From: Candidatus Cybelea septentrionalis
Lineage (GTDB): Bacteria > Vulcanimicrobiota > Vulcanimicrobiia > Vulcanimicrobiales > Vulcanimicrobiaceae
NCBI GenBank assembly: GCA_003158175.1
Contig: PMHJ01000039.1
Location: 1 to 40,490, forward strand
Direction: 5' to 3'
Length of the DNA: 40,490 nt
Part shown: in pieces, positions 6,857-9,892 of the stretch
How the letters are laid out: every line of letters begins with the position of its first letter
Numbering within the stretch: position 1 is the first letter of the stretch
The notes under the pieces: generated by a model
The model's database searches: none
What the model was told of the DNA's origin: nothing
Seen by the model: only the letters and a program-made list of their open reading frames with translations
Translations under genes and position numbers: made by a program

Positions 6857-7762
6857 CTAGAGCAGCAATTCCATCCCGTCGTAGGCGATCTCGGTGGCCG
6901 CTTCCCGAATTTCCTGAGAAGCCGCTGAGGACGGGTCGAGCATCGGATTCGAATTATTGAGATGCGTGAAGACGATCCGGGTGCCGATGCCGCGCAGACG
7001 CTCGAGCGTACCGCCCTCACCACCCACCGATTGATGTCCGAGCGACTCGGCACTTTTGGGGAGCAGGTGCTGCGCGACCAGCTCGTCGGTCGTGTAAAAT
7101 GTCCCGTCGACAAAAGCGACGTGCGCCGATGCGATCGCAGCGTACAGTGCGCTGTCGACGCCGGAGAAGACCGGGGCGAAAAGGAGACGGTTCTTCCGAT
7201 CTAGATCGGAGACTTCGTAGGCAACCACCGCGCCGGGAATGCGGCGACGGCCGTCGTAGCCGGGGGTCGTTCCCGGAACGGACAGGGCGCGAACCGCCAG
7301 TTGATTTCCAACGATGTCGTCTTCGCTTGCAGCTTCGCATGGAACGTCGAGCGGACTCTCGAGCCAGCGATGCGGTGGCTGGGAAAAAGGCACGTAGGCC
7401 GATTGCGCGGTCGCGATGGCGCGAACGATCGCACTCGAGCGAACGATGAAGTGGTGTTCGCCGCTCTGACGCAGGGTCGCGAGGCCTCCGAGATGATCGA
7501 CGTTCGCGTCGGTGAAGAGGATGCCGGCGATAGGCGTGCCGCGTGGCTTGCCGGGATGCAACGGTGCGAAGGCTTCGATCTGCGATGCGATATCGGGCGA
7601 ACAGTTGAGCAGGAGCCAGCGCTTGCCGTCGGCGCTCACGGCGAGCCCGGACTGCGTTCGTTGCGCGCGGCGTCCCGCGCGGGCCGCCGAGCAGTTGTCG
7701 CACGCGCAGTTCCACTGTGGCACGCCACCGCCGGCCGCCGAACCGAGCACGCGGACGATCAC
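6857..7762 (-). CDS. pqqB: PqqB, metallo-beta-lactamase-fold PQQ biosynthesis protein
   Basis: A 301-aa PqqB. The family start VIVRVLGSAAGGGVPQWNC(A)C and the Cys pair CACDNC are present, followed by LLLNCSPDIASQI, ILFTDANVDHLGGL, VPGTTPGYDG and VFTHLNNSNPML. As in other PqqB, the metallo-hydrolase HxHxDH motif is degenerate (DANVDH). The enzyme is thought to hydroxylate the tyrosine of the processed Glu-Tyr dipeptide. The start is a GTG at 7762 that overlaps the pqqE stop (GTGA, 7759-7762). Reading upstream to 7951 would run into pqqE in another frame and is rejected. Confidence 0.95.
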   Translation of the reverse strand: MIVRVLGSAAGGGVPQWNCACDNCSAARAGRRAQRTQSGLAVSADGKRWLLLNCSPDIASQIEAFAPLHPGKPRGTPIAGILFTDANVDHLGGLATLRQSGEHHFIVRSSAIVRAIATAQSAYVPFSQPPHRWLESPLDVPCEAASEDDIVGNQLAVRALSVPGTTPGYDGRRRIPGAVVAYEVSDLDRKNRLLFAPVFSGVDSALYAAIASAHVAFVDGTFYTTDELVAQHLLPKSAESLGHQSVGGEGGTLERLRGIGTRIVFTHLNNSNPMLDPSSAASQEIREAATEIAYDGMELLL

Positions 7763-8829
7763 GCTCGGCGATAGACCGGTTCGGCCCCGGACGTCTCCTC
7801 GCGTAGTGACGCGATACTGGCGTGATCCGGGCTGAGCGAACAGGCCGGGTCCGTCACGCCGGGATCGCCTGTGATCAAGTACGCTTGGCACCGGCAACCG
7901 CCCCAGTCCAACTCGCGCCGCTCGCACGAGCGGCATGGCTCGGGCATCCAATCGGTGCCGCGATAGCGCACGAACGATGCGGAATCGCGCCAGATATCAC
8001 CGAGCGCGCGATCGCGCACGTTCTCAAACGCCAACGTGGTAATTCCAGCCGCCGCCGGGCAGGGCAACGCGTAACCGTTGGGCGTGACGGTGATGAACTG
8101 ACGACCCCAGCCGTTCATGCACGGTTTGGGAAAATCGCCGAAGTAATCCGGAAGCACGTAAACGATCTCCATCGATCCGTGTAGACGCTCGCGAGCAGCG
8201 GCGACGACGTCTTCGCCGTGGCGAACCTGCTCCAGCGTCGGCATCAGCGCGACGCGGTTGCGATAGGCCCAGCCGTAGAACTGCACGTTGGCCAGCTCCA
8301 GCCGGCGAATTCCGAGGCGCTGCGCGTAATCGATGACCTCCTCGATCGAATCGTGATTCAAACGGTGCAACACGCAGTTGAGCGTTAGCGCGACCTCGCG
8401 CGTAAGCACGCGCCGCAGCGCGTCCGCCTTCTTGTCGTGGACGATTGCGCCGGCGATGCGGTCGGCGAGTGCTGCCTGCGGCGCCTGAATGCTAATCTGC
8501 ACGTGATTGAGACCGCCGTCGACCAACCGGTCGAGCAATTCGTCGTCGAGAAACGTCCCCTGCGTGATCAGGTTCGTATAGAGCCCGCAAGCGGCTGCGG
8601 CTTCGACGAGTGGAACGAGATCGGAGCGCAGCGTCGGCTCGCCGCCGGAAAAGTGCGCTTGAACCACGCCAAGATCGGCGGCTGCCTGCAAAACGCTGCG
8701 CCATTGGCCGGTCGTCAACTCATCGCGGTACGCTCGCAGATCGAGCGGGTTGTAGCAATACGGACACTGCAGATTGCAGCGGTAGGTAAGCTCGCAAAGC
8801 AGCGACAAGGGCCTGAGCTGCTCGTTCAC
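7759..8829 (-). CDS. pqqE: PqqE, radical SAM PqqA-peptide cyclase
   Basis: A 356-aa radical SAM/SPASM enzyme. C18-x3-C22-x2-C25 binds the SAM [4Fe-4S] cluster. The C-terminal SPASM region has the cysteine set CRSC...CRC...C (about residues 296-330) for auxiliary clusters. With PqqD it joins the Glu and Tyr side chains of PqqA by a C-C bond, the first step of PQQ synthesis. FSGGEPTL at about 60 is the SAM-binding GGE block. The ATG overlaps the pqqD stop and the TGA overlaps the pqqB GTG, so the genes are translationally coupled. Confidence 0.97.
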   Translation of the reverse strand: MNEQLRPLSLLCELTYRCNLQCPYCYNPLDLRAYRDELTTGQWRSVLQAAADLGVVQAHFSGGEPTLRSDLVPLVEAAAACGLYTNLITQGTFLDDELLDRLVDGGLNHVQISIQAPQAALADRIAGAIVHDKKADALRRVLTREVALTLNCVLHRLNHDSIEEVIDYAQRLGIRRLELANVQFYGWAYRNRVALMPTLEQVRHGEDVVAAARERLHGSMEIVYVLPDYFGDFPKPCMNGWGRQFITVTPNGYALPCPAAAGITTLAFENVRDRALGDIWRDSASFVRYRGTDWMPEPCRSCERRELDWGGCRCQAYLITGDPGVTDPACSLSPDHASIASLREETSGAEPVYRRA

Positions 8830-9089
8830 TGCAGAAGCCCACGCTGCTCGAGCCGCTCGAAGAGTTCGGACAGATCCTCGCCGGCGCGGTCGGCGGTTAC
8901 GTCGAATCGCGCGGCCACTGCCGCGACGATCTCTACCAGCGGGCGCGTTCCGTCGACCAGTTCCAGCGCCGCCGCTGCGGGGGCATTGAGAACGAGCGCG
9001 CCCTCAGGGATCAGCAGCATGACGCTGCCGTTTCCGTCGTGCCGCAGCTTGACGCCCTTACCGAAGCGCGGGCACGCGGTGGGCTTCAT
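8826..9089 (-). CDS. pqqD: PqqD, PqqA-binding chaperone
   Basis: An 87-aa PqqD, the RRE-type peptide chaperone that binds PqqA and presents it to PqqE. Starting from ATG 9089 the protein begins MKPTACPRFGKGVKLRHD, with the typical ALVLNAPAAAALELVDGTRPLVEIVAAVAARFD block split over the middle; it ends LFERLEQRGLLQ. The ATG overlaps the pqqC stop in an ATGA junction (9086-9089). An open frame reaching further upstream lies inside pqqC and is not used. Confidence 0.94.
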   Translation of the reverse strand: MKPTACPRFGKGVKLRHDGNGSVMLLIPEGALVLNAPAAAALELVDGTRPLVEIVAAVAARFDVTADRAGEDLSELFERLEQRGLLQ

Positions 9090-9784
9090 TTGAAGGTGCC
9101 GCAGGCGAGGGCAGTCGCATCCAGGGTGCACCAAAGAACGTCGCATTTAAAGCGCAAGGCTTCGACGCAAGCGCGTTCGACGTCGGGTGTCGTCGCTTCT
9201 TGGAGCACCCAAGATAACGCCGATTCGGCATCGCGTTTCGCCAGTGGAATTCGTTTTTGAAAGTACGCTAAACCCGAGCGATCGATCCACGGATACTTTT
9301 CGATAATCGCGGCGACTCTGGCCGTCATGACCGGCGGCCCGAAAAGCTCGGTGAGGGACGAGGCCACCGCTTCGATCCACGGCCGAGTGCGGGCAAACGT
9401 AACGTAGGCATCGACCGCGAAACGCGTCCCCGCCGCCACGCCGCGCTCCGAGAGCACCTCGGCCTCGTCGAGTCCGACCGCTTGCGCGAGCGCCAGCCAC
9501 GAGACAGTGCCTCCCTCGCCGTCCACGGCGCCATCGTGATCGTAAATGCGAGAGATCCACGCCCGGCGATGCGATGCGGAGGGCAGGTTCGCGAGAATCG
9601 CCGCGTCCTTTACGGGAATCTGCTTTTGGTAGTAATAGCGATTCGCCACCCAAGCCTGCACCGCGGCGCGGTCGAGCGTTCCGGCGACGAGCCGCCGATG
9701 AAACGGGTGCTTGTCGTGGTAATGCTCCTCGCCGACGGCGTAAAGCCGTGCGAGGAGATCGGAATCGGCCGTCGTTGGGGGAGG
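9086..9784 (-). CDS. pqqC: PqqC, pyrroloquinoline-quinone synthase, start codon unclear
   Basis: PqqC performs the last step, ring closure and oxidation to PQQ. Conserved blocks: EEHYHDKHPFH (Tyr/His of the active site), QAWVANRYYYQKQIPVKDAAI and SRIYDHDG. The open frame begins right after the pqqA TAA, in the same frame, giving up to 232 aa. The first codons read PPPTTADSDLLARLYAVGEEHYHD. There is no ATG, GTG or TTG before the GTG at 9661, and that GTG would delete the conserved HYHDKHPF region. The true start is therefore non-canonical (ACG at 9775 or 9772 is possible), or PqqC is made by read-through from pqqA, or there is a base error. The interval given is the full open frame. The stop overlaps pqqD. 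Confidence 0.85.
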   Translation of the reverse strand, partial: PPPTTADSDLLARLYAVGEEHYHDKHPFHRRLVAGTLDRAAVQAWVANRYYYQKQIPVKDAAILANLPSASHRRAWISRIYDHDGAVDGEGGTVSWLALAQAVGLDEAEVLSERGVAAGTRFAVDAYVTFARTRPWIEAVASSLTELFGPPVMTARVAAIIEKYPWIDRSGLAYFQKRIPLAKRDAESALSWVLQEATTPDVERACVEALRFKCDVLWCTLDATALACGTFK

Positions 9785-9892
9785 TTAGAGCTTAGGTTCG
9801 CGCATCGGCGCGCTAAGGTAAGCCGTTACCTCGGCGCCAAGCTGATGCTCTTGAAAATCGGGGCGCTCCCATGGCGCGCGCTTCTCTTTCAT
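9785..9892 (-). CDS. pqqA: PqqA, ribosomally made PQQ precursor peptide
   Basis: A 35-residue peptide missed by length-limited gene finding. It reads M-KEKRAPWERPDFQEHQLGA, then EVTAYLSAPMREPKL. The core is Glu21-Val-Thr-Ala-Tyr25, the E-x3-Y pair that PqqE cross-links to form PQQ. The preceding PDFQEHQLG matches the leader that binds PqqD. It is longer than the usual 22-24 aa, with extra residues at both ends. GAGGAG lies seven bases before the ATG, an excellent ribosome site. It is first in the operon, as expected. The TAA is in the same frame as the downstream pqqC. Confidence 0.92.
   Translation of the reverse strand: MKEKRAPWERPDFQEHQLGAEVTAYLSAPMREPKL

Follow-up and report, generated by a model that had tools for sequence, protein, structure and literature searches.

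An intact pqqC gene without a canonical start codon at its usual place behind pqqA in a clade of uncultured soil bacteria

In uncultured soil bacteria of one clade, pqqC, the gene for the enzyme that completes synthesis of the cofactor PQQ, is startless in nearly every species yet intact. The case at hand is the window, that is, the entire stretch of 40,490 nucleotides from Candidatus Cybelea septentrionalis analyzed here, where pqqC, as the initial annotation stated, has no usable start codon and lies in frame directly behind the stop codon of pqqA, on the minus strand. Comparison of the 18 genomes of the clade demonstrates that the usual start is missing and that the frame of pqqC relative to pqqA is free, and indicates, as far as sequences can tell, that the spacer between the two genes is read as pqqC coding sequence and that the gene is kept intact by selection. 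We put the chances only just above even that pqqC of this clade is expressed by coupled restart, after termination on pqqA, at a codon other than ATG, GTG or TTG.

The PQQ operon of the window

The operon consists of pqqA, pqqC, pqqD, pqqE and pqqB, all on the minus strand and each scoring above its NCBIfam cut-off. The precursor peptide gene pqqA (9785..9892, minus strand) begins with an ATG that has GAGGAG upstream, and its product matches TIGR02107 at 29.2 bits (cut-off, 20 bits). The initial description of this peptide, 35 amino acids with Glu21 and Tyr25 and a single TAA at the end, proved accurate; the TAA occupies 9787-9785 and is preceded by the codons of the C-terminal tail LSAPMREPKL (9817-9788, minus strand). 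Past the TAA, the frame in phase with pqqA reads PPPTTADSDLLARLYAVGEEHYHDK and runs on to a TGA at 9088-9086; this is the open frame of pqqC (9086..9784, minus strand; 232 codons plus the TGA), which contains no canonical start and the product of which matches TIGR02111 at 303.2 bits (cut-off, 240 bits). Conservation of PqqC among relatives extends from about L10 on, and the 27 nt between the pqqA stop and this first conserved residue (9758..9784, minus strand), hereafter the spacer, include no ATG, GTG or TTG in any frame. From the TAA up to HYHD, the pqqC frame is devoid of ATG, GTG, TTG, CTG, ATT, ATC and ATA; it does hold two ACG codons, the candidate starts at 9775-9773 and 9772-9770 (minus strand; bases 10-15 past the TAA). 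The earliest in-frame GTG, at 9661 (ORF 9086..9661), lies where the initial annotation had put it and is given in the window's list of reading frames; initiation there would remove the catalytic HYHD.

The other genes of the operon are more conventional in this respect. The ATG of pqqD (8826..9089, minus strand) overlaps the pqqC stop as ATGA, an ordinary stop-start overlap that contrasts with the beginning of pqqC; PqqD itself passes its NCBIfam cut-off only narrowly (47.3 versus 46 bits). The radical SAM enzyme gene pqqE (7759..8829, minus strand) starts with GTG. The reading frame of pqqB spans 6857..7951 (minus strand), but TIGR02108 matches the product only from residue 66 on, which puts the probable true start near 7756. 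The operon is adjoined by a gene for a beta-propeller protein with PQQ_2/BamB-like repeats (PF13360; 5613-6845, minus strand), and a fatty acid desaturase gene (PF00487; 9955-10887) is located upstream of pqqA on the same, minus strand. The genome of the window also encodes a second TENA/THI-4 family protein (L002, G000 C13:154929-155558; 87.2 bits), and several relatives yield weak second matches to PqqC.

Start codons and reading frames across the clade

PqqC was searched for in 98 related genomes, 39 of which matched at E 0.001, some through distant family members; in 99 genomes of the family, with 27 matches at 1e-40; and in genome_contigs, from which the best 80 of 212 loci were taken, duplicate DNA being counted once. 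The 27 family members comprise the 18 clade genomes, eight outgroup members, and L114 (G131), which was dropped because its match does not cover the N-terminus. Fifteen of the clade genomes belong to the genus of the window (among 18 genomes of that genus), two to a second genus and one to a third. Delimitation of the clade followed the discovery of the missing starts; in the PqqC tree of 31 rows, 16 of its members all fall to the same side of a branch (support 86/87) that is recovered in 82% of bootstrap trees, the remaining two (L029 and L115) being absent from the tree because their pqqC is too short. For the statistical tests, 13 representatives were picked by kinship, with L001, L029, L005, L012 and L015 omitted, and L015, which has no spacer codon, stands outside the codon tests altogether.

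In 17 of the 18 clade genomes, the part of the pqqC frame that lies 15-45 codons upstream of the Asp in the YHDK motif contains no canonical start, and in 12 there is no ATG, GTG or TTG anywhere in the open frame upstream of this Asp. The sole canonical codon of L007, L016 and L020 is a GTG seven codons before the Asp; L115 has that GTG as well as an ATG 72 codons upstream of the Asp, and L013 has a TTG 54 codons upstream, within pqqA. According to the initial annotation, relatives with a normal start at this place would speak against a startless pqqC: L008 is the only clade genome that has one, a GTG 18 codons before the Asp. All eight outgroup members possess an ATG or GTG 22-24 codons before the Asp, and outside the clade, a canonical codon is found 15-45 codons before it in 75 of 76 non-duplicate pqqC loci, where such a codon was counted as present whether or not it is the true start, so that in long frames some occurrences are due to chance. 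The exception, L104 from Saccharopolyspora rosea, has an open frame 332 codons long but no ATG, GTG or TTG within 180 codons before YHD (upstream of 3001); a CTG start or fusion to an upstream gene is possible there.

No alternative codon takes the vacant place throughout the clade. None of the near-cognate codons is common to the 18 genomes, and in L007, L009 and L014, the interval of 11 to 30 codons upstream of the Asp is free of CTG, ACG, ATA, ATC, ATT, AAG and AGG (a CTG lies at 10 codons in both L007 and L009). An ACG is present close to the junction in 11 of the 18, which may be a matter of chance, this codon making up 2.9% of gene-body codons. The non-canonical ACG start, one of the options offered initially, accordingly survives as a fit to the window and does not extend to the clade as a common start, for which we do not take 11 of 18 as proof. 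Inspection of the 18 loci by eye revealed no consistent Shine-Dalgarno-like sequence ahead of pqqC.

The position in phase with pqqA is not general either. The pqqC frame relative to pqqA is 0 in seven genomes (the window, L006, L008, L011, L012, L014 and L017), -1 in eight (L004, L005, L007, L010, L013, L015, L029 and L115) and +1 in three (L009, L016 and L020), and all 18 have it open as far upstream as the stop of pqqA. The distance from that stop to L10 ranges from -4 to 56 nt; in L015, the stop overlaps L10, and hence a PqqC that includes L10 must begin at or before the pqqA stop. The question raised at the outset, whether the TAA is conserved among relatives, has a divided answer: a stop is retained in all 26 family loci, none of which contains an open PqqA-linker-PqqC fusion, and within the clade it is TAA in 15 genomes and TAG in three. 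Given the three frames and the universal stop, a fusion produced by one kind of recoding is not conserved, so read-through into a PqqA-PqqC product, another of the initial options, finds no conserved scheme, and in-phase read-through is ruled out as the general mechanism.

Clade pqqC is intact except in L115, where it is cut by the contig end, and in L029 (G009 C282), where it is split over two frames between match residues 36 and 53, through either a read error or a real lesion. In four pairs, its dN/dS is 0.083-0.109, indicative of purifying selection. The neighboring genes served as a control in 17 clade loci, L115 ending inside pqqC: all 17 have a canonical pqqE start no more than five codons from the match start and also, under a lenient criterion that counts every canonical codon after the upstream stop, a canonical pqqD start (the closest one in L029 precedes the match by 14 codons, in a stretch that includes an unread residue). 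Being intact and under purifying selection in operons whose other members start normally, pqqC is evidently in use.

The PqqA peptides of the clade also share features at the C-terminus. The tail after the Tyr is 8-10 residues long, compared with 3-9 in the eight other family loci, and ends in P/L-K-x-stop in 17 of 18 clade loci (L020 being the sole exception) versus none of the other eight, a motif that was picked post hoc. The PqqA core GAEVTAY is not specific to the clade, being present as well in L025 and L113, which have normal starts.

Translation of the spacer and possible routes to PqqC

Codon usage derived from pqqE of the same loci was applied to compare the pqqC frame of the spacer with the other two frames. 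The spacer fits the pqqC frame best, with P = 5e-5 (the finest step) for the 17 loci that have a spacer and the same value for the 13 representatives. In the outgroup, spacers upstream of the start show no fit to the pqqC frame (P = 0.38; 65 codons from seven loci), and the stretches from the start to L10 do (P = 0.0006; eight loci). The signal close to the pqqA stop is fainter: P = 0.033 for spacer codons 1-3 and 0.0095 for codons 1-4 among the representatives, and 0.22 and 0.077, respectively, in the full set; with codon usage taken from pqqC itself, the stop-proximal half of the spacer gives P = 0.0014 and 0.020. These coding signals place the beginning of PqqC most likely within the spacer or at the stop of pqqA rather than downstream of L10.

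The spacers are also conspicuously poor in start codons, with one ATG, GTG or TTG in 482 nt of clade sequence, all frames considered. Off-frame starts number 0, where shuffling predicts 5.9 (P = 0.0014; 4.4 for the 13 representatives, P = 0.007) and gene-body windows would give 9.6 (P = 0.0002), and the choice of loci was independent of this absence. For in-frame starts, the single instance compares with 3.1 under shuffling, which is not significant (P = 0.16), and with 6.4 in gene-body windows (P = 0.009). The T content of the spacers, 11% versus 19% in the gene body, accounts for part of the shortage. An absence of off-frame starts is what would be expected if ribosomes leaving pqqA restart nearby and would otherwise be diverted.

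Coupled restart, the reading that we favor, would proceed as follows. A ribosome that finishes pqqA would terminate at its stop codon, and the same ribosome, delivered to the junction by termination, would start again close to that stop at a non-canonical codon, which in the window is most likely one of the two ACG codons. The weakness of such a start would keep PqqC scarce relative to PqqA, which as a substrate is spent at one molecule per PQQ; in PMC2294125, PqqA protein of another organism is put 20-fold above, for instance, PqqC or PqqE, and this excess, together with the consumption of the peptide, would furnish the reason for weak PqqC initiation. Separate initiation tolerates the three frames, which fusion via one kind of recoding does not. 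Coupled restart is consistent as well with the short distance to the upstream stop, a feature of termination-reinitiation, and PMC10666635 finds restart in E. coli gene pairs to be limited to short distances; the canonical start of the downstream gene, likewise typical, is at its usual place in 1 of 18 genomes. What argues against coupled restart at a near-cognate codon is that L007, L009 and L014, unlike the window with its ACG, lack any such codon where one is expected, and that, according to the same paper, near-cognate starts are weak in E. coli, ATT being quoted there at about 0.3% of ATG, and restart falls by 40-80% at a distance of 14 nt and is nearly lost at 38 nt. An unlikely variant is that no fixed start codon exists, so that the ribosome would restart in place in whichever frame pqqC occupies, the pqqA stop itself acting as the start signal of pqqC and the ribosome perhaps being held by the P/L-K-x-stop tail. 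The codons upstream of the first canonical or near-cognate start carry an ambiguous coding signal (P = 0.035 for the representatives and 0.25 for the full set), and translation might thus begin at the pqqA stop.

Two other explanations would yield a PqqA-PqqC fusion. Recoding at the pqqA stop, whereby a few ribosomes would read through (frame 0) or shift (-1, +1), could draw on the frame being open to the stop in all 18 genomes, a raw count, on the hint that the coding signal reaches the stop in codons 1-4, and on the possibility that the post hoc tail motif slows termination; we nevertheless regard it as improbable. Three frames would require three kinds of recoding, in place of the constant phase with the stop that marks programmed read-through, and the stop is TAA in most of the clade. 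The genome of the window yields 41 tRNA matches, all at places covered by ARAGORN, and none of them has a stop-codon anticodon, the assembly being 94% complete, so that one could be missing. Folding energies at the junction, computed for 18 loci with 60 shuffles each by an in-house shuffling routine, are not consistently low (z from -3.4 to +1.4): z is below -2 at the junction in four (L001, at -2.9, L006, L007 and L115) and downstream of the stop in five (L001, L006, L007, L008 and L029), and RNA structure may exist at the junction in some genomes. Fusion in any frame would also be possible if ribosomes hopped from the final codon of pqqA to a matching one at the beginning of PqqC, and in 13 of 18 genomes this final codon does recur upstream of G18 within the pqqC frame, compared with an average of 9.5 under shuffled assignments (P = 0.0175, by a statistic that ignores kinship). 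However, the exact match of take-off and landing codons that typifies programmed bypassing is absent in five (L011, L016, L017, L020 and L115), L016 and L020 do not match even in the first two bases, and landing on the CTC that is common at L10 would mean that ribosomes skip the spacer, contrary to its coding signal; we consider hopping highly improbable.

Initiation at a canonical codon elsewhere has the attraction that such codons exist, namely, the GTG at V17 in L007, L016, L020 and L115, TTG54 in L013, ATG72 in L115 and, in the window's list of reading frames, GTG 9661; against this, the 12 genomes with none up to the YHDK Asp, the loss of the conserved HYHD that a start at 9661 would entail, and the coding signal of the spacer combined with conservation from L10 on make it quite improbable. 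An error of assembly or sequencing in the window appears next to negligible. The window spacer is one base longer than those of L004, L005 and L029, with the extra base in a C run just before the shared ACGACGGCCGATTCC, but these three relatives are startless too, and an error at this point would alter only the frame relative to pqqA. More generally, startlessness recurs in separately assembled genomes, which takes it beyond an assembly error in the window, and a base error at the TAA, also contemplated initially, is rejected on account of this recurrence and of the purifying selection on pqqC.

Comparison with known systems

If coupled restart at a non-canonical codon is indeed how PqqC is made, a downstream gene of an operon would need no canonical start codon, and gene finders that rely on start codons would truncate or miss a needed enzyme gene. 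The clade would then provide a natural system of many species for studying restart by post-termination ribosomes and would exemplify a simple evolutionary route to a large excess of precursor peptide over the enzyme that processes it. Neither reinitiation nor the use of rare start codons is new; a clade-wide startless enzyme gene for which three frames are allowed was not encountered in our limited look at the literature. In that look, which took in few subscription journals, the titles and abstract openings among the matches listed mentioned neither a startless pqqC nor a PqqA-PqqC fusion.

Several known systems share parts of this arrangement. The infC gene has a rare start codon, ATT, that holds its expression low, and pqqC would resemble genes of this type in starting outside ATG, GTG and TTG; in the infC type, however, the rare codon is fixed, whereas no single codon is common to the pqqC genes of the 18 genomes. 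In the bypassing of T4 gene 60, the sense codon immediately preceding the stop is found again downstream, and the frame is free; at the pqqA-pqqC junction, by contrast, the matching codon is missing in five of 18 genomes, and the gap appears to be translated. A further parallel is termination-reinitiation coupling at ATGA-type overlaps, as characterized in PMC10666635, which likewise involves neighboring genes at very short spacing, and of which pqqC-pqqD of the window is an ordinary example within the same operon; in the known pairs, an NTG start coincides with the stop or adjoins it, and for pqqA-pqqC, such a start is missing from its usual place in 17 of 18 genomes. Finally, the PqqC-PqqD fusion of M. 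extorquens (PMC2294125) also joins adjoining PQQ genes, but there two pathway proteins are encoded by one gene, whereas between pqqA and pqqC a stop codon intervenes, and the neighbor of the enzyme is the substrate peptide.
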